A stretch of 64,000 nucleotides of DNA, taken from positions 1-64,000 of the forward strand of contig PLBK01000007.1 of the NCBI GenBank assembly GCA_003134505.1, written 5' to 3'. The position numbers and the translations under genes were made by a program. Positions 50,065-61,137 of the stretch are shown in pieces. The notes under the pieces were generated by a model that was not told the DNA's origin, ran no database searches, and saw only the letters and a list, made by a program, of their open reading frames with translations. Every line of letters begins with the position of its first letter. The stretch's first letter is position 1. The DNA comes from Actinomycetota bacterium. GTDB taxonomy: Bacteria; Actinomycetota; Thermoleophilia; Gaiellales; Gaiellaceae.

Positions 50065-50579
50065 TGAACCTGAACGTCAACGGCAGGACGCACGAGATCG
50101 AGAGCCCGCCCCTGACGACGCTGCTCGACGTCCTGCGCGAGGAGCTCGGCGTCCACAGCCCGAAGGTGGGGTGCGAGCAGGGCGGCTGCGGCGCCTGCAC
50201 GGTGCTCGTCGACGGCGCGCCCAGGCGCTCGTGCCTGCTGCCGGTGGCCGCGCTCGACGGGGCCGAGATCACGACCGTCGAAGGCCTCGGCGCAGCCGAG
50301 CACCTCGAGCCGGTCCAGGCGGCATTCGTCCACCATTACGCGGCGCAGTGCGGCTTCTGCACCTCCGGTCTGCTCATGGCTGCGACGGCGTACATCGCGA
50401 ACGGCGGCACGGACGACCGCGAGGCGATCGCCGAGGCCCTCGGCGGCCACGTCTGCCGCTGCACCGGCTACGTCAAGATCGTCGACGCGGTCGCCGCCGC
50501 GGCGCGAGGCGATGAGTTCGACCTGTCCGTCACGGCGGCGGGCCTGTTCACGACGACGATGTCGGGCGGCGCGGCATGA
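50064..50579 (+). CDS. [2Fe-2S] (small) subunit of second molybdenum hydroxylase
   Basis: KVGCEQGGCGACTVLVDG; CGFCTSGLLMAATAYI...GGHVCRCTGYVKI. Confidence 0.97.
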   Translation: MNLNVNGRTHEIESPPLTTLLDVLREELGVHSPKVGCEQGGCGACTVLVDGAPRRSCLLPVAALDGAEITTVEGLGAAEHLEPVQAAFVHHYAAQCGFCTSGLLMAATAYIANGGTDDREAIAEALGGHVCRCTGYVKIVDAVAAAARGDEFDLSVTAAGLFTTTMSGGAA

Positions 50580-51946
50580 AGGCCGTCGGCGCACGCGTGC
50601 CCCGCTACGACGGGGTGGCGCATGTCACCGGGCGGACGGTGTTCGTCGAGGACGTCGAGATCCCCGGCGTCGCGTGGGTCAAGGCGCTCCGCTCACCGCA
50701 TCACCACGCCACGATCACGAAGCTCGACACGCGCCCGGCCGAGCAGATGAAGGGCGTCCGCGCGGTCGTCACCGCGGCCGACGTCCCGCTCAACGTCTAC
50801 GGCCACCTGTCCGCGCTCGGCATCCCCGGCGACGAGCCACTGCTCGCCGACGCCGAGGTCCGCTACCTCGGCCAGCCGATCGCGGTCGTCGCCGCCGACG
50901 ACGAGCAGACGGCCCAGGCCGCGGTCGACGCAATCGAGATCGAGTTCGAGGAGCGCCCGGCGCTGTTCGACGTCCGCAAGGCCTTCGACCCGGACGCACC
51001 GCAGATCCACCAGTGGGGCAACTGGTACCCCCACTTCGAAGCCGGAATGGACCGCCGTCAGATCAGGAAAGGGGACATCGACGCTGCCTTCGCGCAGGCG
51101 GACGTGATCGTCCAGGGCGTCTACAGGCCGGCGGCGATCGAGCAGCTCCCGCTCGAGACCCAGGTCTGCCAGGTCGTGCCCGAGGCGAACGGCCGGCTGA
51201 CCATCTACTCCTGCACGCAGGCCCTCTACTTCTCGATGGGCGTGGTCGCCGCCCACCTGCAGCAGCCGCTGAACAAGTTCAAGTTCGTCGGCGGCACGGT
51301 CGGCGGCGGGTTCGGAGGCAAGGTCGACACGGCCACCGAGACGCTGTGCTCCCTGCTCGCGCTCAAGTCCGGCCGGCCGACCAAATGGCGCTGGACCCGC
51401 GAGGAGGAGTTCCTCTGCTCCTCGACCCGCGCGCCGTGGCACATGGAGATGGCAGATGCGGTGACGAAGGACGGCTGGATCCTCGGCCGCAGGATGATCA
51501 CGCTGCACGACTCGGGGGCCTACGCCCGCTTCTCGCCCTACGGCGTGACGAAGCACGCGTTCCACCACACCGGCGCATACACCATCCCGAATCTCCATTT
51601 CGACGGCTGGTGCGTGTTCACGAATCGCACGCCGACGAGTGCCATGCGCGGCTTCGGCGTCACCTCGGTCTCGTTCGCGACCGAGACGCACCTGAGCCGG
51701 ATCGCGGAGGAGCTCGGCATCGACCCGTTCGAGCTCCGGCTGAAGAACGCGAACCGGATCGGCGACACCTCACCGAACGGGGTCGTCTACACGGACCCGT
51801 CGACGGTGCCGACGATCCTGGCGATCGCCGACCACCTCGGCCACGAGCTACCGGCCGACTACCGCACGATGACCAGCGAGCCGCGCTCGGACGGGCTGCT
51901 CCCCGAGCACCTCGTCGCCCAGGTCGGAAATCCGGAGGATCACTAG
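50576..51946 (+). CDS. Molybdopterin-binding subunit, N-terminal half (split large subunit)
   Basis: VGARVPRYDGVAHVTGRTVFVEDVEIPG; FVGGTVGGGFGGKVD; SAMRGFGVTS; ends with TAG at 51944. Confidence 0.9.
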   Translation: MKAVGARVPRYDGVAHVTGRTVFVEDVEIPGVAWVKALRSPHHHATITKLDTRPAEQMKGVRAVVTAADVPLNVYGHLSALGIPGDEPLLADAEVRYLGQPIAVVAADDEQTAQAAVDAIEIEFEERPALFDVRKAFDPDAPQIHQWGNWYPHFEAGMDRRQIRKGDIDAAFAQADVIVQGVYRPAAIEQLPLETQVCQVVPEANGRLTIYSCTQALYFSMGVVAAHLQQPLNKFKFVGGTVGGGFGGKVDTATETLCSLLALKSGRPTKWRWTREEEFLCSSTRAPWHMEMADAVTKDGWILGRRMITLHDSGAYARFSPYGVTKHAFHHTGAYTIPNLHFDGWCVFTNRTPTSAMRGFGVTSVSFATETHLSRIAEELGIDPFELRLKNANRIGDTSPNGVVYTDPSTVPTILAIADHLGHELPADYRTMTSEPRSDGLLPEHLVAQVGNPEDH

Positions 51947-51948
51947 CC

Positions 51949-53064
51949 ATGACAGTCCACAAGGGCCGCGGCATCGCGGCAATCGAGTACCCGACGGGGA
52001 TGAACCAGAACGGCGACCCGTCGCAGGCGTGGATCAAGGTCAAGCCGGACGGCCGCATCGACGTCTTCGCGGGCACGTCCGACATCGGCAACGGCTCGAA
52101 GACGATCCAGTCGCAGATCGTGGCCGAGACGATCGGCGTCCCGTACGAGTGGATCACGTACGACAACTCGAACACCGACTCGTCGCCCGTCTGCACCGGC
52201 ACCTTCGCCTCGCGGGCCACGTTCGTCGCCGGCATGGCCGTGAAGAAGGCGGCCGAGCGCGTGCGCGAGCGGATCCTCGACATCGCCGGCAAGGAGCTCG
52301 AGATCGACCCGGCCGACCTGGACATCGTCGACGGGGAGGTGATCGCGAAGGGCTCGCCGCAGACGAAGATCTCCGTTCCGGACGTGGCCGCAGCAGCTAC
52401 CTGGGGTCACGGGGAGCTGATCACGGGCGCCGGTGCACAGCTCAAGCCGTACGCGGCGATCGTCGAGCCGGAGACCGGGAAGGTCGACCTGCCGCCGCAC
52501 TCGGCGATCTCCTACGCGTCCTGCGCCGCCGAGGTCGAAGTGGATGACGAGACCGGCGAGGTGCGCGTAACGCGGCTCGTGCAGTGCTTCGACGTCGGGC
52601 GCGCGATCAACCCGACGCTGGTCGAGGGGCAGATCGAGGGCGGCGCGATCCAGGGGCTCGGGCTCGGCGTGCTCGAGACGAGCTACCCGTACTACCCGGG
52701 CATGGAGCATCGCGGCGGCCAGTTCGGGTCGTATCTGGCCCCGGGCATGGAGGACCTGCCGGTCATGGACACGGTGCTGATCGAGAACCCGTCCGTGGAC
52801 GGGCCTTACGGCGCCAAGGGCATCGGCGAGATGGCGAACAATCCACAGCCGCCGGCGATCGCCACCGCCGTCCACGACGCGGTCGGCGTCTGGGTGACGG
52901 AGCTGCCGATCACTCCCGAGCGGGTGCTGCGCGCGCTCCAGCGCAAGGCGGCGGGCGAGGGTGAGCCGACGCGCAAGGGCAAGCTCATCGTGTACGACGA
53001 GGAGCTCTCGCTCGCCGCGGTCGCCCATCCCGACGCGCCGGTCAGGCTCGTCGTCGACGCTTGA
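51949..53064 (+). CDS. Molybdopterin-binding subunit, C-terminal half (split large subunit)
   Basis: GRIDVFAGTSDIGNGSKTIQSQIVAETIG; CAAEVEVDDETGEVRVTRLVQCFDVGRAINPTLVEGQIEGG; GPYGAKGIGEM. Confidence 0.9.
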   Translation: MTVHKGRGIAAIEYPTGMNQNGDPSQAWIKVKPDGRIDVFAGTSDIGNGSKTIQSQIVAETIGVPYEWITYDNSNTDSSPVCTGTFASRATFVAGMAVKKAAERVRERILDIAGKELEIDPADLDIVDGEVIAKGSPQTKISVPDVAAAATWGHGELITGAGAQLKPYAAIVEPETGKVDLPPHSAISYASCAAEVEVDDETGEVRVTRLVQCFDVGRAINPTLVEGQIEGGAIQGLGLGVLETSYPYYPGMEHRGGQFGSYLAPGMEDLPVMDTVLIENPSVDGPYGAKGIGEMANNPQPPAIATAVHDAVGVWVTELPITPERVLRALQRKAAGEGEPTRKGKLIVYDEELSLAAVAHPDAPVRLVVDA

Positions 53065-54775: not shown

Positions 54776-55249
54776 TCAGGTCGCCGTGATCGTGCAGCCG
54801 AAGTCGGCCGGCAGGAGCGCGCCCGGGCCGACCTTGAAATGCTGGCCGGTGTCGGGGTCCTTGCCCTCGGAGACGACGTGGGCGAGGTTGACCTGGAAGT
54901 GCACCGTGACCGAGTCGCCGGGGTTCGTCAGCGTGCCGGCGAAAGCACGCCACGTGCTGGCGGCGTCCTGGATCGGTCCCCAGAGGCCACTGGCTCCCGC
55001 GATCGGCGTGCCGTTGACGTCCGCCGTCGTCGTCTGGGCGTTCAGGAAGTCCTGCACGCGTCCGCGGTTGCTCTCTCCCCAGGTGAACCGCACGGTGACG
55101 TCGCTGCCGGCCGGAACGGTCGCCTGACCGCCGCCGAGGAAGTAGCACCCGACCAGGCCGACCGTGACGGGAGACGAGGCGCCGGCCGTCGAGGCGCCGA
55201 GAGCGGCGGCCGTGCAGATCCCGATGATGAAGAACATCGTTCGCTTCAT
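54776..55249 (-). CDS. Small secreted protein with two mature-region Cys, divergent from BTAD/SBP regulator
   Basis: MKRTMFFIIGICTAAALGASTAGASS signal peptide; SD AAAGGAGGTGG upstream of ATG. Confidence 0.8.
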   Translation of the reverse strand: MKRTMFFIIGICTAAALGASTAGASSPVTVGLVGCYFLGGGQATVPAGSDVTVRFTWGESNRGRVQDFLNAQTTTADVNGTPIAGASGLWGPIQDAASTWRAFAGTLTNPGDSVTVHFQVNLAHVVSEGKDPDTGQHFKVGPGALLPADFGCTITAT

Positions 55250-55314
55250 GTGATTGACCACCTCCTTTCGGCCGCTTTTCTCGCAGGCGCGCCCAAAGAT
55301 CGGGTCAAGGCGGC

Positions 55315-55343
55315 CAAACGGGCGGTAAATCACCTGCAAACGG
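55315..55343 (+). promoter_or_regulatory. Direct heptamer repeats CAAACGG-N15-CAAACGG (22-bp period), candidate operator abutting -35
   Basis: CAAACGG at 55315-55321 and 55337-55343, then GTGACT (55343-55348), 17 nt, TACGGT (55366-55371), GTG 55380. Confidence 0.6.
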
Positions 55344-55379
55344 TGACTTCCGCATCGATCCGTGGTACGGTCGCCCGCG

Positions 55380-58300
55380 GTGGAGTTCCGGATTCTTGGA
55401 CCGCTCGAGGTCGCCCGGAACGGAGCGGTCATCACGATCGGCGGCGGCAAGCAGAGAGCCCTGCTGGCCCTCCTCCTGCTCCGGCGCAACCAGATCGTCC
55501 CGACCGACGCCCTGATCGAGGAGCTCTGGCACGGCAGCCCGCCGGCGACCGCCGGCAAGATCGTCCAGCTCTACGTGTCGCGGCTGCGTAAGGCGCTCGG
55601 CGACGACGTCCTCGTCACGCGCTCACCGGGCTACACCCTTCGGGTCGAGCCGGAGGAGGTCGACGCCGATCGCGCCGAGCGACTGCTCGCCGAGGGCCGC
55701 CGCGCGCTCGCGGAGGGAGTGCCGGCTGCGGCGGCGTCGAGCCTGCGGGAGGCACTCGGCCTGTGGCGCGGACCGCCGTTCGCGGACTTCGCCTACGAGG
55801 ACTTCGCCCAGCAGGAGATCGGCCGCCTCGAAGAGGTTCGGCTGGCGGCGCTCGAGGAGCGGATCGAGGCCGACCTGGCCCTGGGCCGGCACGCAGAGGT
55901 CGCCGTCGAGGTCGAGACCCTCGTCAACCGGCACCCGCTGCGGGAGCGCCTTCGCGCCCAGCTTGCGCTCGCGCTCTACCGGTGCGGCCGCCAGGCGGAA
56001 GCGCTCGACACGCTGCGTGAAGGACGCCGCGCCCTCGACCAAGAGCTCGGCCTCGAGCCCGCGCCGGCGCTGCAGGAACTCGAGCGCCGGATCCTCCGGC
56101 ACGATGCCGGGCTCGAAGCGCCGCCGCGGATCGAGCCGCCCGCGGAGAGCAGGATCTCGACGCTCGTGCCTCCGACGCTGCGCCGCCGCGGGCCTGCCTT
56201 CGTCCTCGCCGGCGCGGTGCTGCTGGGAGCCGCGATCTCGGCGCTCGCCTTCGAGCTGGCGAGCGGGGGCGGCTCGCACACGCTGCAGACCTCGAACGCG
56301 CTCGGCCTGATCGTGCCGGGGAAGCGCCGGCTCGTCGACTCCGTCCCACTGGGGCTGTCTCCGGGCCCGGTCGCGTTTGCCGGGGATGCGCTCTGGGTTG
56401 CGGACACCGACAGCGCGACCCTGGTCCGCGTCGATCCGACGTCGCGCCGCGTCGTCGCGACGGTCACGATGCCCCGGGTCGTGGACGGGCTCGCGGGCGA
56501 CGGCGACGTGCTTTGGGCCGTCGGGGAGGCACCGGCGGATCCGTTCATCCGGGCCAGCCGTGTCGACACGCAGTTCAACGACGTCGCCCAGAGCGTCGAC
56601 GTGCCGAGCCCGGCCGGAGGGTGGTCCCGCGTCGCGAGCGGAGGCGGAGCCCTGTGGGTCGCGCCCGCGTTCAGCCTCGCCACGCGCCTCGAGCCGTCGT
56701 CGGGACGGACCGTTGCCCGGATCGACCCTCGGAGCACGCCGACCGCCGTCGCTGCCGGAGCGGGCGCGTTGTGGCTCGGCAACGGGGCCGCGGGCACGTT
56801 GACGAGAATCGACGCGCACGGGGTGGTGACGACGATTCCGGTGGGCAACGGCCCGTCAGGGATCGCTGTAGGCGCCGGAGCTGTCTGGGTCGCCGACAGC
56901 CTCGACGACCTCCTGGTGCGGATCGACCCGTCCACGCTCGCGGTCAGAGCGACGATCCGGGTGGGTGACGGGCCGGTCGCCGTCGTGATCGCAGCGGGCT
57001 CGGTCTGGGTCGCGAATCAGCACGACCGCACGGTGGCGAGGGTCGATCCTGCGACTGATCACGTCGTCGAACGGATCGCCGTGGGCGGGAGTCCCGAGGC
57101 GCTCACGGCTGCCGGGCGGAATGTCTGGGTCACGCTCCAGCAGCCGCCGGCCGTGAGCGCGCAGGCATCGGGGCGCGGGGTCGTCCGCGTCAACGCCCAG
57201 GACGACTTCGGCTCCCTCGACCCCGCGATCGCGTACACCAACATCAGCTGGCAACTGGAGTACGCGACCTGCGCGAAGCTCCTCAACTACCCGGACGCAC
57301 GCGGCTCGGCCGGCTCGCACCTCGGGCCCGAGGTCGCCGAAGCGCTCCCGACCGTCTCGGCCGACGGCAAGACCTACACCTTCACGGTCCGGACGGGGTT
57401 CCGGTTCTCGCCTCCGTCCAACGAACCGGTCACCGCCCAGACGTTCAAAGACACGATCGAGCGGACACTCGATCCTCGTGCACACAGCCCTGCCCAGCAG
57501 TATGCCGGCGACATCGTCGGCGAGCGGGCCTACGCCGCCGGCAAGGCCCGGCACATCAGCGGCGTCGTCGTCCACAGGAACACGCTCGCGATCCGGCTGA
57601 CCGGGCGTGCGCCCGACCTCCCGATCCGGATGTCTCTTCCCTTCTTCTGTGCGGTGCCCTCGGGCACCCCCGTCGACCCACGCGGTCTGCGACTGATTCC
57701 CTCGGCGGGCCCGTACTACCTCGCCGCCTACTCCCCGAACCAGGCTGCCGTGCTCCGGCGAAACCCGAATTACACGGGTGGCCGGCCGAGACGCGTGGCC
57801 GAGATCGACGTGACGGTCGGCGTGAGCAAGGCCGACAGCGTCCGCGAGATCGAGGTCGGGAAGGCGGACTACGCCATCGATGGGATCGCCCCCGAGCAGG
57901 CGGCGAGGCTGGCCGCGACGTACGGGGCGGGCAGTCGCAGGGCGAAGGCAGGCGAGCAGCAGTACTTCACCAGCGCGGGAACGGGCGTCTACTACCTCAT
58001 GCTCAACACGAGCCGGCCGCTCTTCGCGGACGCACAGATGCGTCAGGCGGTGAGTTACGCGATCGACCGGCAGGCCCTGGCGAGGCTCGCCTCGAGAGGA
58101 ACGGGCCTGCCGAGCATCCCGACGGATCAGTACCTGCCTCCGGGAATGCCCGGCTACCGCGACCTCTCGATCTACCCGCTGACGCCCGATCTGGCGAAGG
58201 CGAGACAGCTCGCGGCAGGTCGCCACGGGACCGCAGTGCTCTACACGTGCGAGTCGGCTACCTGCGCGCAGGCGGCCGCGATCATCAAGCACGACCTGGC

Positions 58301-58742
58301 GATGATCGGCATCGACGTCCAGGTCGAGGTTTTTTCGTACGGCGTGCGCTTCGCCAGGATCCAGACGAAGGGAGAGCCGTTCGACATCGCCGAGGTCGGC
58401 TGGTTCTCCGACTACCTCGATCCCGCCAACTTCCTCAACCAGCTTCTGGACGGGCAGCAGATCAAGCCGCACGGCGGCACCGACTTCTCCTACTTCGACG
58501 ACCCCTCGTACAACCGCAAGCTGCGGGCCGCGGCGCAGCTGTCGCCGCCCGAGCGCTACCGCGTCTACGCTGAACTGGACGAGGATCTGACCCGAAACGC
58601 CGCCCCGATGGTCGCTTACGGGATCTCCACCAACGGCGACTTCTTCTCCGCCCGCATCGGCTGCCACGTCTACCAGCCGATCTACGGCTTCGACCTCGGC
58701 GCGCTCTGCTTCCGCCCTAGCGCCGCCGGTGGAGGAGGATGA
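55380..58742 (+). CDS. One-component regulator candidate: OmpR-type wHTH + BTAD domain, TM helix, YVTN-like beta-propeller, SBP_bac_5-like domain
   Basis: FRILGPLEVARNGAVITIGGGKQRALLALLLL..LYVSRLRKALGDDVLVTRSPGY; BTAD LREALGLWRGPPFADF..REGRRALDQELGLEPAPALQELE; TM GPAFVLAGAVLLGAAISALAF; propeller GAVWVADSLDDLLVRIDPSTLAV; SBP YLMLNTSRPLFADAQMRQAVSYAIDRQAL. Confidence 0.9.
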   Translation: MEFRILGPLEVARNGAVITIGGGKQRALLALLLLRRNQIVPTDALIEELWHGSPPATAGKIVQLYVSRLRKALGDDVLVTRSPGYTLRVEPEEVDADRAERLLAEGRRALAEGVPAAAASSLREALGLWRGPPFADFAYEDFAQQEIGRLEEVRLAALEERIEADLALGRHAEVAVEVETLVNRHPLRERLRAQLALALYRCGRQAEALDTLREGRRALDQELGLEPAPALQELERRILRHDAGLEAPPRIEPPAESRISTLVPPTLRRRGPAFVLAGAVLLGAAISALAFELASGGGSHTLQTSNALGLIVPGKRRLVDSVPLGLSPGPVAFAGDALWVADTDSATLVRVDPTSRRVVATVTMPRVVDGLAGDGDVLWAVGEAPADPFIRASRVDTQFNDVAQSVDVPSPAGGWSRVASGGGALWVAPAFSLATRLEPSSGRTVARIDPRSTPTAVAAGAGALWLGNGAAGTLTRIDAHGVVTTIPVGNGPSGIAVGAGAVWVADSLDDLLVRIDPSTLAVRATIRVGDGPVAVVIAAGSVWVANQHDRTVARVDPATDHVVERIAVGGSPEALTAAGRNVWVTLQQPPAVSAQASGRGVVRVNAQDDFGSLDPAIAYTNISWQLEYATCAKLLNYPDARGSAGSHLGPEVAEALPTVSADGKTYTFTVRTGFRFSPPSNEPVTAQTFKDTIERTLDPRAHSPAQQYAGDIVGERAYAAGKARHISGVVVHRNTLAIRLTGRAPDLPIRMSLPFFCAVPSGTPVDPRGLRLIPSAGPYYLAAYSPNQAAVLRRNPNYTGGRPRRVAEIDVTVGVSKADSVREIEVGKADYAIDGIAPEQAARLAATYGAGSRRAKAGEQQYFTSAGTGVYYLMLNTSRPLFADAQMRQAVSYAIDRQALARLASRGTGLPSIPTDQYLPPGMPGYRDLSIYPLTPDLAKARQLAAGRHGTAVLYTCESATCAQAAAIIKHDLAMIGIDVQVEVFSYGVRFARIQTKGEPFDIAEVGWFSDYLDPANFLNQLLDGQQIKPHGGTDFSYFDDPSYNRKLRAAAQLSPPERYRVYAELDEDLTRNAAPMVAYGISTNGDFFSARIGCHVYQPIYGFDLGALCFRPSAAGGGG

Positions 58743-58899: not shown

Positions 58900-61137
58900 C
58901 TAGCCGGTCAGCCGGAGCTCGACGGCGGGCGCGCCCGGCACGATCGCGGCCGTCTCTCGCGCGTGGAGGAGTGTCGTCTTCACGATCAGCTTTGCGCGCG
59001 CGTAGTTGTCCATCATCGTCGGCACCGGGCCGACGGCGTGCCCGAGCGCGTAGCCGGCCGCGTTCTGTCCCATCGCGCGGTAGGAGTCGAGCGAGTAGAG
59101 CGGTGACATGCCGAACAGCTCGAGGTTGTCGAGCGTCTGCAGGTCGGAGCGGTGGATGACGGCGGTGCCCTTCGACTGGAGGCCGAGCGCGATCCCCGAG
59201 CCGGAGAGGAGCGCGCCGTCATGCCCGACGAAGGCGACGTCCGACGAGCGGCGGACGCGCACGAGCCGCGGCTCGGCCCCGCCCGCCCGTATGCCGTCGC
59301 AGAGCGCCGCCAGCACGTCGGCATGTGAGAGCCCGTTGATCGTGGCACGCAGTGCGTCGCCGAACGCCGGCCCGACCGCGACGACCACTTCGTCCGCGCG
59401 CTCGCTCACCGCAGCCTCCCCCGCCTCGACAACGACCGGCTCGCCGGCGGCGGCCTCCTCGAGCAGCTTGCGCGGGTCGACGACGTACGGTAGCGACTGC
59501 AAGAGCTCCCAGCGCGCACCGTCCAGCCGATAGCCCGTCCCCGGGCCGGCGTAGAGGTTCGGGTCGTTGACCGCCGAGTGGACGGTCCCCTCGGCGTCGA
59601 TCACGGCCGCCGTCTGCAGGTAGTCGGCCGAGACCCGCTGGCGCTGCATGCCGACGATCGCCTCCGCCACCTCGGTAAAGCCGCGCTCGTCGAGCGCCCG
59701 GACGACGTCGGCGCTCGTCGTTCCCGCCGCCAGCAGCCCGTCGGCGGCCTCGGCGTCGGCGCCGCGGTCCCGATCCGGGAGATCCCGGCTCGTGGAGCCG
59801 TACGTCGCCGCCTCGATCTCGGCGTCGGTGACAGCCGGCAAGCCCAGCCCCTCGAAAACGGCCTGGATCGCCCGCGCGGCCCGCTCGCGCACGGCGACCA
59901 CGTCCGCCTCCGCGGCGGGCTCGATCCCGGCGTCGACCTGCCAGTCGCGCTGGACGGTCATCCATTCCTCGAGGTCGTCCGCGTCGTAGTTGCCGCCGCC
60001 GAACATGTTGTCGTAGCGGGGCATGACCGAATAGCCCGAGGTGACGAAGTCCGTCCCGGGCAAGAATTGCCCCATCAGCTTCGCCGTCTTGCGGATCTCC
60101 GAGTGCGAGGCGATCGCGTCGTTGCCGGACGCCACCTCGAGGTCGAGCCAGGCGGCGATCATGTTCTCCGCCAGGATCTCGCGTGTGCCGCCGGGCACGG
60201 CCAGCGCGAGCGCGACGCACGAGATCGAGCCGTTCTGGACCCCCTGCGAGCCGGCGGCACGCACGGCTGCGAGGCAGCGCGCCTCGAGGTAGAGCATCGA
60301 GTAGCCGAGCGAGCGGCCCATCAGCGCCTCCGAGCCGCCGCCCGACGTGAAGCGGATCTTGACGCCGCGCGACGCGTAGGCGGAACCGAGGAACGCCTTC
60401 GACCAGGGCGTGTCGTCGCCGTCCACGAAGACCGGCTCGGTGCCGTACACCGACAGCGTCTCCGCGTAGGTGACGAGCCCGCGGATCGCCAGGTCGAGGT
60501 TCCGTCGCTCCTCGACCGCGCACTGGGTCATCACGCCCGGGCGGCCGGTCTGCGCGCCGACGAGGATCGCGATCGCGTTCAACGGCGCGTAGCGGGACAC
60601 GCCCACCGTCGTCTCGACCTCGGCGAAGCCGCGCGCCGCGGCCTCGGCGGCGTCGGCGGCGAGCAGAGCCGGGTTGTCCTTCAGGTTCGTGACGTGCGCC
60701 TGGTTCGCCGGCGCACGCCGCGCCCGCAGCTTCTTGAGCGCGAACATCGTCTCGACGGGATCGAGCCGGGAGGCAACGCGGGCCAGCCGGGCCGGGGTCA
60801 GGCCCCTCGAGAGGCGGACGAGCTGGTCGCGCGGGCAGTCCACGTCCACGAGCCGGCGGGCGATCTCCTCGTCCGTCAGCACCTCGGCCTCGGCGGCCGC
60901 GTCCACGTCGATCCCGTACCGGGCGATGAAGTGGTCGATCACGTCGAAGTCCGGCTCGCGGCGCCCGTCGATCTCGACGACACGGCCGTCCTCGACGACG
61001 AGGCTCGGATCCGGATCGTTCGGCCCGTCCATGGCGACGAGCCCGAGCTCGGGGTACGGCGAGACGAGCAGCTCGCGCCGGAGCTCGCGCTGCTCGCGCG
61101 AGACGAAGCGCTCAGACCTGCGCGCGTTCTGCGGCAA
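58900..61137 (-). CDS. B12-dependent diol/glycerol dehydratase, fused large + medium subunits (TTG start)
   Basis: RSERFVSREQ..ELGLVAMDGPNDPDPSL..FDVIDHFIARYGIDV..MFALKKLRARRAPANQAHVTNLKDNPA..SVYGTEPVFVDGDDTPWSKAFLGSAYASRGVKIRFTSGGGSEALMG (PduC-like), then PduD-like C-terminal part. Confidence 0.9.
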   Translation of the reverse strand: MPQNARRSERFVSREQRELRRELLVSPYPELGLVAMDGPNDPDPSLVVEDGRVVEIDGRREPDFDVIDHFIARYGIDVDAAAEAEVLTDEEIARRLVDVDCPRDQLVRLSRGLTPARLARVASRLDPVETMFALKKLRARRAPANQAHVTNLKDNPALLAADAAEAAARGFAEVETTVGVSRYAPLNAIAILVGAQTGRPGVMTQCAVEERRNLDLAIRGLVTYAETLSVYGTEPVFVDGDDTPWSKAFLGSAYASRGVKIRFTSGGGSEALMGRSLGYSMLYLEARCLAAVRAAGSQGVQNGSISCVALALAVPGGTREILAENMIAAWLDLEVASGNDAIASHSEIRKTAKLMGQFLPGTDFVTSGYSVMPRYDNMFGGGNYDADDLEEWMTVQRDWQVDAGIEPAAEADVVAVRERAARAIQAVFEGLGLPAVTDAEIEAATYGSTSRDLPDRDRGADAEAADGLLAAGTTSADVVRALDERGFTEVAEAIVGMQRQRVSADYLQTAAVIDAEGTVHSAVNDPNLYAGPGTGYRLDGARWELLQSLPYVVDPRKLLEEAAAGEPVVVEAGEAAVSERADEVVVAVGPAFGDALRATINGLSHADVLAALCDGIRAGGAEPRLVRVRRSSDVAFVGHDGALLSGSGIALGLQSKGTAVIHRSDLQTLDNLELFGMSPLYSLDSYRAMGQNAAGYALGHAVGPVPTMMDNYARAKLIVKTTLLHARETAAIVPGAPAVELRLTG

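Follow-up and report, generated by a model that had tools for sequence, protein, structure and literature searches.

How a DNA-binding protein comes to carry the binding half of a nutrient transporter is the question raised by the gene at positions 55380-58742 (plus strand) of a 64,000-nucleotide stretch of the actinomycetotal contig PLBK01000007.1, called the window below. The gene is a single, uninterrupted open reading frame of 1120 codons, and an earlier reading made from the letters (the original prediction) had described its product as a one-component receptor spanning the membrane. We consider it likely that the protein is a membrane-anchored one-component activator of the SARP (BTAD) type, whose extracellular sensor consists of a beta-propeller and a solute-binding protein (SBP) recruited from a Dpp/Opp-type ATP-binding cassette (ABC) transporter. 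We also favor, with less assurance, the broader view that it belongs to a phylum-wide modular class of receptors in which a propeller and a transporter-derived SBP (in cis, or in trans as the product of a convergent gene) are coupled to an interchangeable SARP, cyclase or kinase output, the SARP version being a one-polypeptide route from solute to promoter that controls a head-to-head secreted protein.

Domain scans of the open reading frame gave the order SARP winged helix, BTAD, transmembrane (TM) helix, YVTN propeller and SBP_bac_5. Translation starts at the GTG at 55380, which lines up with the first residues, [MV]EFRILGPLEV, of relatives. Residues 1-88 (55380-55643) form a winged-helix DNA-binding domain (Trans_reg_C at 23-86, Pfam E 1.1e-9), and a BTAD follows directly at residues 94-239 (55659-56096, E 9e-45), as in SARPs. 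A YVTN-type beta-propeller occupies residues 306-590 (56295-57149), with NCBIfam TIGR02276 above its cut-off, and a family-5 SBP domain occupies residues 597-1110 (57168-58709; SBP_bac_5 at 649-1027, E 6.5e-57). All three Pfam calls, Trans_reg_C, BTAD and SBP_bac_5, exceed the curated cut-offs, so the single 1120-residue frame and the domains first proposed for it stand. The closest solved structures are Streptomyces AfsR over residues 2-296, with the alignments to 8hvr, 8k60 and 8jke beginning at residue 2, and peptide-binding proteins over residues ~595-1057. By these matches the DNA-binding half is of the SARP type (AfsR/EmbR) and not merely a generic OmpR winged helix; the winged helix of the original prediction is retained and its OmpR label is narrowed. 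The protein does not match the soluble small, medium, large or LAL SARP architectures, as it has a TM helix, a propeller and an SBP, and no biosynthetic cluster was noticed adjoining its gene. The SBP domain is likewise internal to a 1120-residue TM protein, not a separate secreted protein or lipoprotein.

Hydropathy placed the single TM helix at approximately residues 273-291 (56196-56252), with RRR on the predicted cytoplasmic side. Four lysines or arginines lie in the 20 residues before the helix and none after it. This positive-inside bias, which 48 of 52 relatives share, agrees with the one hydrophobic helix, arginine-rich on its cytoplasmic face, that had been proposed. An AlphaFold2 model whose input included 51 related sequences had a mean predicted local distance difference test score (pLDDT) of 91.2, low only at residues 256-299 (linker and TM helix) and 591-596; the propeller was modeled at high pLDDT as all-beta blades. 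Foldseek assigned the C-terminal half the SBP_bac_5 fold, with the peptide-binding proteins 8upi, 2wop (clavulanate OppA2), DppA, MppA and OppA as best matches. Because domain matches, charge bias, AlphaFold2 and Foldseek agree, a layout with the N-terminus and the DNA-binding half in the cytoplasm, a single pass through the membrane and an ectodomain of two domains is well supported as a prediction. This predicted topology is that of CadC and ToxR (cytoplasmic winged helix, one TM helix, extracytoplasmic sensor), but a BTAD intervenes between winged helix and membrane; since the DNA-binding half belongs to the SARP/AfsR type, the comparison with CadC/ToxR made in the original prediction survives as an analogy in topology only.

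To place the architecture among other genomes, a profile spanning the propeller-SBP junction (alignment A1) was searched in 399 genomes of the window's class. This returned 32 junction-spanning, single-frame matches in 22 genomes (203-367 bits), separated by a clean gap from the next matches, which were SBP-only and scored at most 178 bits. Other searches added 13 fused genes, bringing to 45 those with propeller and SBP in one open frame. Domain scans of the fetched loci showed the common order output, TM helix, propeller, SBP, where the output was a BTAD in 23 genes, a class III cyclase in 16 and a Ser/Thr kinase in three (one of these a kinase plus cyclase), with three further genes being cut off before the output. 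Among the BTAD genes, those of L112, L127, L128, L131 and L136 end at contig ends or are apparently frame-shifted. BTAD-fused cases are confined to the window's class; in the cases found in other classes of the phylum the output is a cyclase or kinase, apart from one gene truncated ahead of it. The architecture first read from the window holds for this protein, and it is not a one-off but one member of a modular BTAD/cyclase/kinase family. In L044 the family-5 SBP is replaced by a Peripla_BP_6-type binding protein, homologous to the product of a separate gene in L058. No further fused genes were found among 129 genomes of the window's order, a plasmid tblastn with the receptor gave no record covering 80% of the protein, and a scan of genome contigs with P0001 gave just two weak propeller matches. 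The long open reading frames of L048 and L049 (879-1030 aa) were rejected as additional fusions: upstream sequence read in the wrong frame accounts for their N-terminal parts, and their SBPs, of transporter type, sit in permease operons. Tandem pairs of propeller-SBP receptor genes, with a cyclase where the output is visible, were seen at L126:6956-13337, L150:5597-11685 and L152:6267-12678.

The same parts also occur as two genes. In four loci an output-TM-propeller gene (BTAD output in L054, cyclase in L055, L056 and L057) lies tail-to-tail with a separate secreted SBP gene, the stop codons being 1-99 bp apart or overlapping. In view of these pairs, the fixed part of the receptor would seem to be the propeller and not the SBP; because SBP and propeller are separate proteins there, the SBP may act through the propeller. 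L042, where an SBP gene stands beside a cyclase gene, was rejected as a split pair, since its cyclase runs into an NB-ARC-like ATPase and has no propeller.

In a tree of 79 SBPs (in which L042 is still labeled as a split pair), sensor SBPs fell into two clades or more, among which SBPs of DppBCDF operons are interspersed. On this tree the SBP is captured from transporter SBPs at least twice, as the original prediction of a captured transporter protein would have it, and the BTAD label requires at least six changes on supported branches. The clearest output swap, judged from sequence comparison, is the sister pair L125 (BTAD) and L124 (cyclase), joined with support of 98/93: their propellers are 60% and their SBPs 59% identical, and the cyclase of L124 shares 68-69% identity with cyclases whose attached SBPs match the L124 SBP at only 31%. 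A two-protein counterpart of the window's one-protein design is found in different families and classes at L111:2544-7534 and L154:2-4305, where a gene for a kinase-TM-propeller-SBP protein and one for a soluble BTAD protein are arranged tail-to-tail. Across L111, L154, L178, L182 and L184, Ser/Thr kinase genes, some with a propeller or propeller-SBP outside, are tail-to-tail with soluble BTAD genes, often with a 4-bp overlap.

What might the receptor control? Head-to-head with it lies a gene (54776-55249, minus strand) with an ATG start and the strong Shine-Dalgarno sequence AAAGGAGGT (55260-55268), which encodes a 157-residue secreted protein with a signal peptide and no Pfam match in the domain scan; we predict it to be the receptor's first target. 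Such a head-to-head secreted-protein gene accompanies 16 of 28 BTAD-output genes vs 0 of 19 cyclase or kinase genes (Fisher p = 2e-5; p-values here and below are indicative, given that relatedness makes the genes non-independent), and 27 of 232 genes of all kinds in these loci, BTAD genes included. Because the data in which this pattern was spotted had also served to test it, a further gene set was examined. There, a divergent neighbor accompanied all 16 BTAD-first genes, and a crude filter gave nine of these neighbors a signal peptide; cyclase-first or kinase-first genes without BTAD had no divergent neighbor.

Known SARP binding sites consist of heptamers repeated directly in 11-bp units and overlap the -35 region (PMC10972967). 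With the period taken from this literature and not from our data, exact 7-mer repeats at 11 bp were found upstream of 13 of 49 BTAD genes vs 10 of 220 background genes (p = 1.6e-5) and of 2 of 37 cyclase or kinase genes; other periods were near background, with almost none raised. Upstream of the window gene, two identical heptamers CAAACGG (at 55315 and 55337, plus strand; 55315-55343), the only match in the window, stand 22 bp apart at -65 and -43 from the GTG and form a candidate SARP-type operator; shuffles of the 127-bp gap gave a chance of ~1.2% for such a pair. A -10-like hexamer, TACGGT (55366-55371, plus strand), ends 8 bp before the GTG, a position that suggests a leaderless transcript.

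A recurring small protein is encoded head-to-head with BTAD genes in L045, L058, L110, L127, L131, L137, L172, L177, L179 and L184. It has a signal peptide, a short variable stretch, a GFDWGDAGIGA-like motif, a C-terminal TM helix and a basic end, and the BTAD regulators divergent from it carry different sensors. It is likely a shared target or partner of BTAD regulators. A different arrangement was seen in L174, L175, L176, L180, L183 and L185, where a soluble BTAD gene (cyclase-BTAD in L183) overlaps by 4 bp the next gene, which encodes ~1080-1170 residues with an N-terminal ATPase-like stretch (GVGKTS/GVGKSS). The BTAD genes of L174, L175, L176, L183 and L185 are head-to-head with a secreted-protein gene, and the corresponding neighbor in L180 lacks a signal peptide.

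The binding pocket bears on what the SBP half might recognize. When DppA (1dpp, residues 49-421) is aligned with residues 651-1024, Asp1011 (58410-58412, plus strand; in GWFSDYLDP) takes the place of DppA Asp408, the residue that holds the amino end of the peptide. The window SBP also keeps the transporter-like residues Y619 and W624. The pocket aspartate is kept in 94% of transporter SBPs vs 67% of sensor SBPs, and is lost in the split L054-L057. Its presence would allow a peptide-like ligand for the window protein, which should not be assumed for the whole family.

From these elements we infer a sensor role for the SBP half and propose the following route. The SBP cleft outside the membrane would bind a small, probably peptide-like solute and close; the closed SBP, tethered in cis, would dock on or reorient the propeller; the arrangement of receptors would then be altered through the single TM helix; and paired winged-helix/BTAD domains at the inner face of the membrane would bind heptamer direct repeats and recruit RNA polymerase. 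If the heptamers between the receptor gene and the divergent secreted-protein gene were bound, the receptor would regulate both itself and its neighbor. The ligand class, docking, signaling, DNA binding and target in this scheme are all inferred.

Several observations weigh against it. Head-to-head secreted genes flank soluble BTAD regulators too, so the pattern speaks for BTAD function and not for the SBP. In the window the heptamer pair is spaced at 22 bp with only a weak unit between, which makes its operator more doubtful than the enrichment across the group. Sensor SBPs often lack the pocket residues that transporter SBPs conserve; some of them may therefore not bind the same ligands, or any. 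The predicted transmission step rests on a single TM helix and a monomer model, and many of the genomes are fragmented and incomplete, with several loci ending at contig ends.

The signal might instead pass by release, with a protease cutting near the membrane after ligand binding and freeing the SARP half. Some membrane-held transcription factors are known to be freed in this way, a long disordered linker (residues 256-272) precedes the TM helix, and soluble BTAD proteins of the same genomes work without a membrane anchor. Against this, we saw neither a conserved cleavage motif nor a linked protease gene, though without a systematic search for either, and cyclases and kinases, for which release would be unusual, are driven by the same TM-propeller-SBP module. 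We judge release unlikely.

The loss of pocket positions in sensor SBPs, including the aspartate of the split pairs, would also fit an SBP that no longer binds solute and serves as a structural or protein-protein contact module, with the propeller sensing cell-wall or secreted-protein partners; the proteins encoded by the head-to-head genes could be such partners. The window SBP keeps the pocket aspartate and aromatic residues, however, and all SBP lobes fold confidently in the model, so that we give this explanation only a small chance.

It is rather improbable that the SBP half still serves uptake, as a membrane-tethered protein that passes solute to an unlinked Dpp/Opp permease, with regulation secondary (a dual transporter-sensor). 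The genome does hold other dpp-type loci (L070, L071), and Y619, W624 and D1011 are transporter-like. Yet no locus of a fused gene contains a Dpp/Opp (DppB/DppC-type) permease, vs at least 34 of 37 loci of related stand-alone SBPs, a comparison in which the stand-alone loci were selected by SBP similarity and not by neighbors, flank lengths differ and some loci end at contig ends. The window and the next 19 kb of its contig likewise contain no DppB/DppC-type permease, only unrelated ABC ATPases at 9-11 kb; the original remark that no cognate permease or ATPase adjoins the gene extends to its fused relatives. Sensing accounts better than uptake for the fusion to cyclases and kinases and for the unrelated binding-protein fold of L044 and L058. 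Finally, that two genes were joined here by sequencing or assembly error has a negligible chance: the assembly is fragmented and 82% complete and split versions occur elsewhere, but at 45 loci, spread over many genomes of different families and classes, the junction profile matches a single open frame without stops, which rules out an artefact, and, the genes of the split versions being convergent, no frame error could turn them into the fusion.

A membrane-anchored SARP with a propeller-SBP sensor has relatives in several known systems. SARP/AfsR-EmbR regulators (AfsR, EmbR, DnrI, ActII-ORF4) share its winged helix and BTAD, with AfsR as the best solved match. The known small, medium, large and LAL SARPs are soluble, carry ATPase/TPR/LuxR or FHA parts, and have no membrane anchor, propeller or SBP. 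CadC and ToxR share the N-terminal OmpR-type winged helix inside, the single TM helix and the outside sensor; to our knowledge they lack BTAD, propeller and SBP, and BTAD recruitment and heptamer repeats are not theirs. In SgrR and DsvR the SBP domain is cytoplasmic. These proteins, like the window receptor, join a DNA-binding domain to a family-5 SBP domain as presumed ligand sensor, and SgrR regulates its own gene (PMC13060122); they differ in the type of helix-turn-helix, and no TM helix or propeller is described for them. The 11-bp pitch of heptamer direct repeats upstream of family genes here may be a further likeness to SARPs (PMC10972967).

Ser/Thr kinases with fused solute-binding or PQQ-propeller domains are known, as are the AfsK-AfsR and PknH-EmbR pairs (PMC1262709), in which a membrane sensor with an outside propeller or binding protein is likewise linked to a BTAD transcription output. 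The L111 and L154 pairs are reminiscent of AfsK-AfsR, whereas in the window sensor and BTAD are one polypeptide without a kinase. In SBP-stimulated transmembrane receptors such as BctC-BctE, a solute-loaded SBP acts on the extracellular domain of the receptor (PMC9602780). The split pairs L054-L057 fit this design; in the window the SBP is fused to the receptor, and its partner domain appears to be a YVTN propeller. The parts are thus known from SARPs, SgrR/DsvR, kinases with SBP or propeller, CadC/ToxR topology and SBP-stimulated receptors, and their combination and the modular family are apparently undescribed: full-text searches of open-license papers found no description of BTAD-TM-propeller-SBP, although an earlier one may exist elsewhere.

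Few activators of antibiotic clusters are better known than SARPs, but these have been treated as soluble proteins signaled by kinases or small cytoplasmic ligands. If our reading is true, a SARP wired through the membrane to a transporter-type SBP would be a direct solute-to-promoter switch. Natural chimeras with the same ectodomain on SARP, cyclase and kinase mark the joints between modules, which is of use for building biosensors, and the predicted operator and head-to-head gene make the receptor idea directly testable in a laboratory host.

Two other arrangements were seen in the window. A xanthine-dehydrogenase-type molybdopterin subunit is encoded in two adjacent plus-strand genes, 50576-51946 (Ald_Xan_dh_C and MoCoBD_1) and 51949-53064 (MoCoBD_2), which adjoin the genes of the flavin adenine dinucleotide and 2Fe-2S subunits. 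Convergent with the receptor gene, a minus-strand open reading frame (58900-61137) combines the large and medium subunits of a diol/glycerol dehydratase (Dehydratase_LU and Dehydratase_MU).

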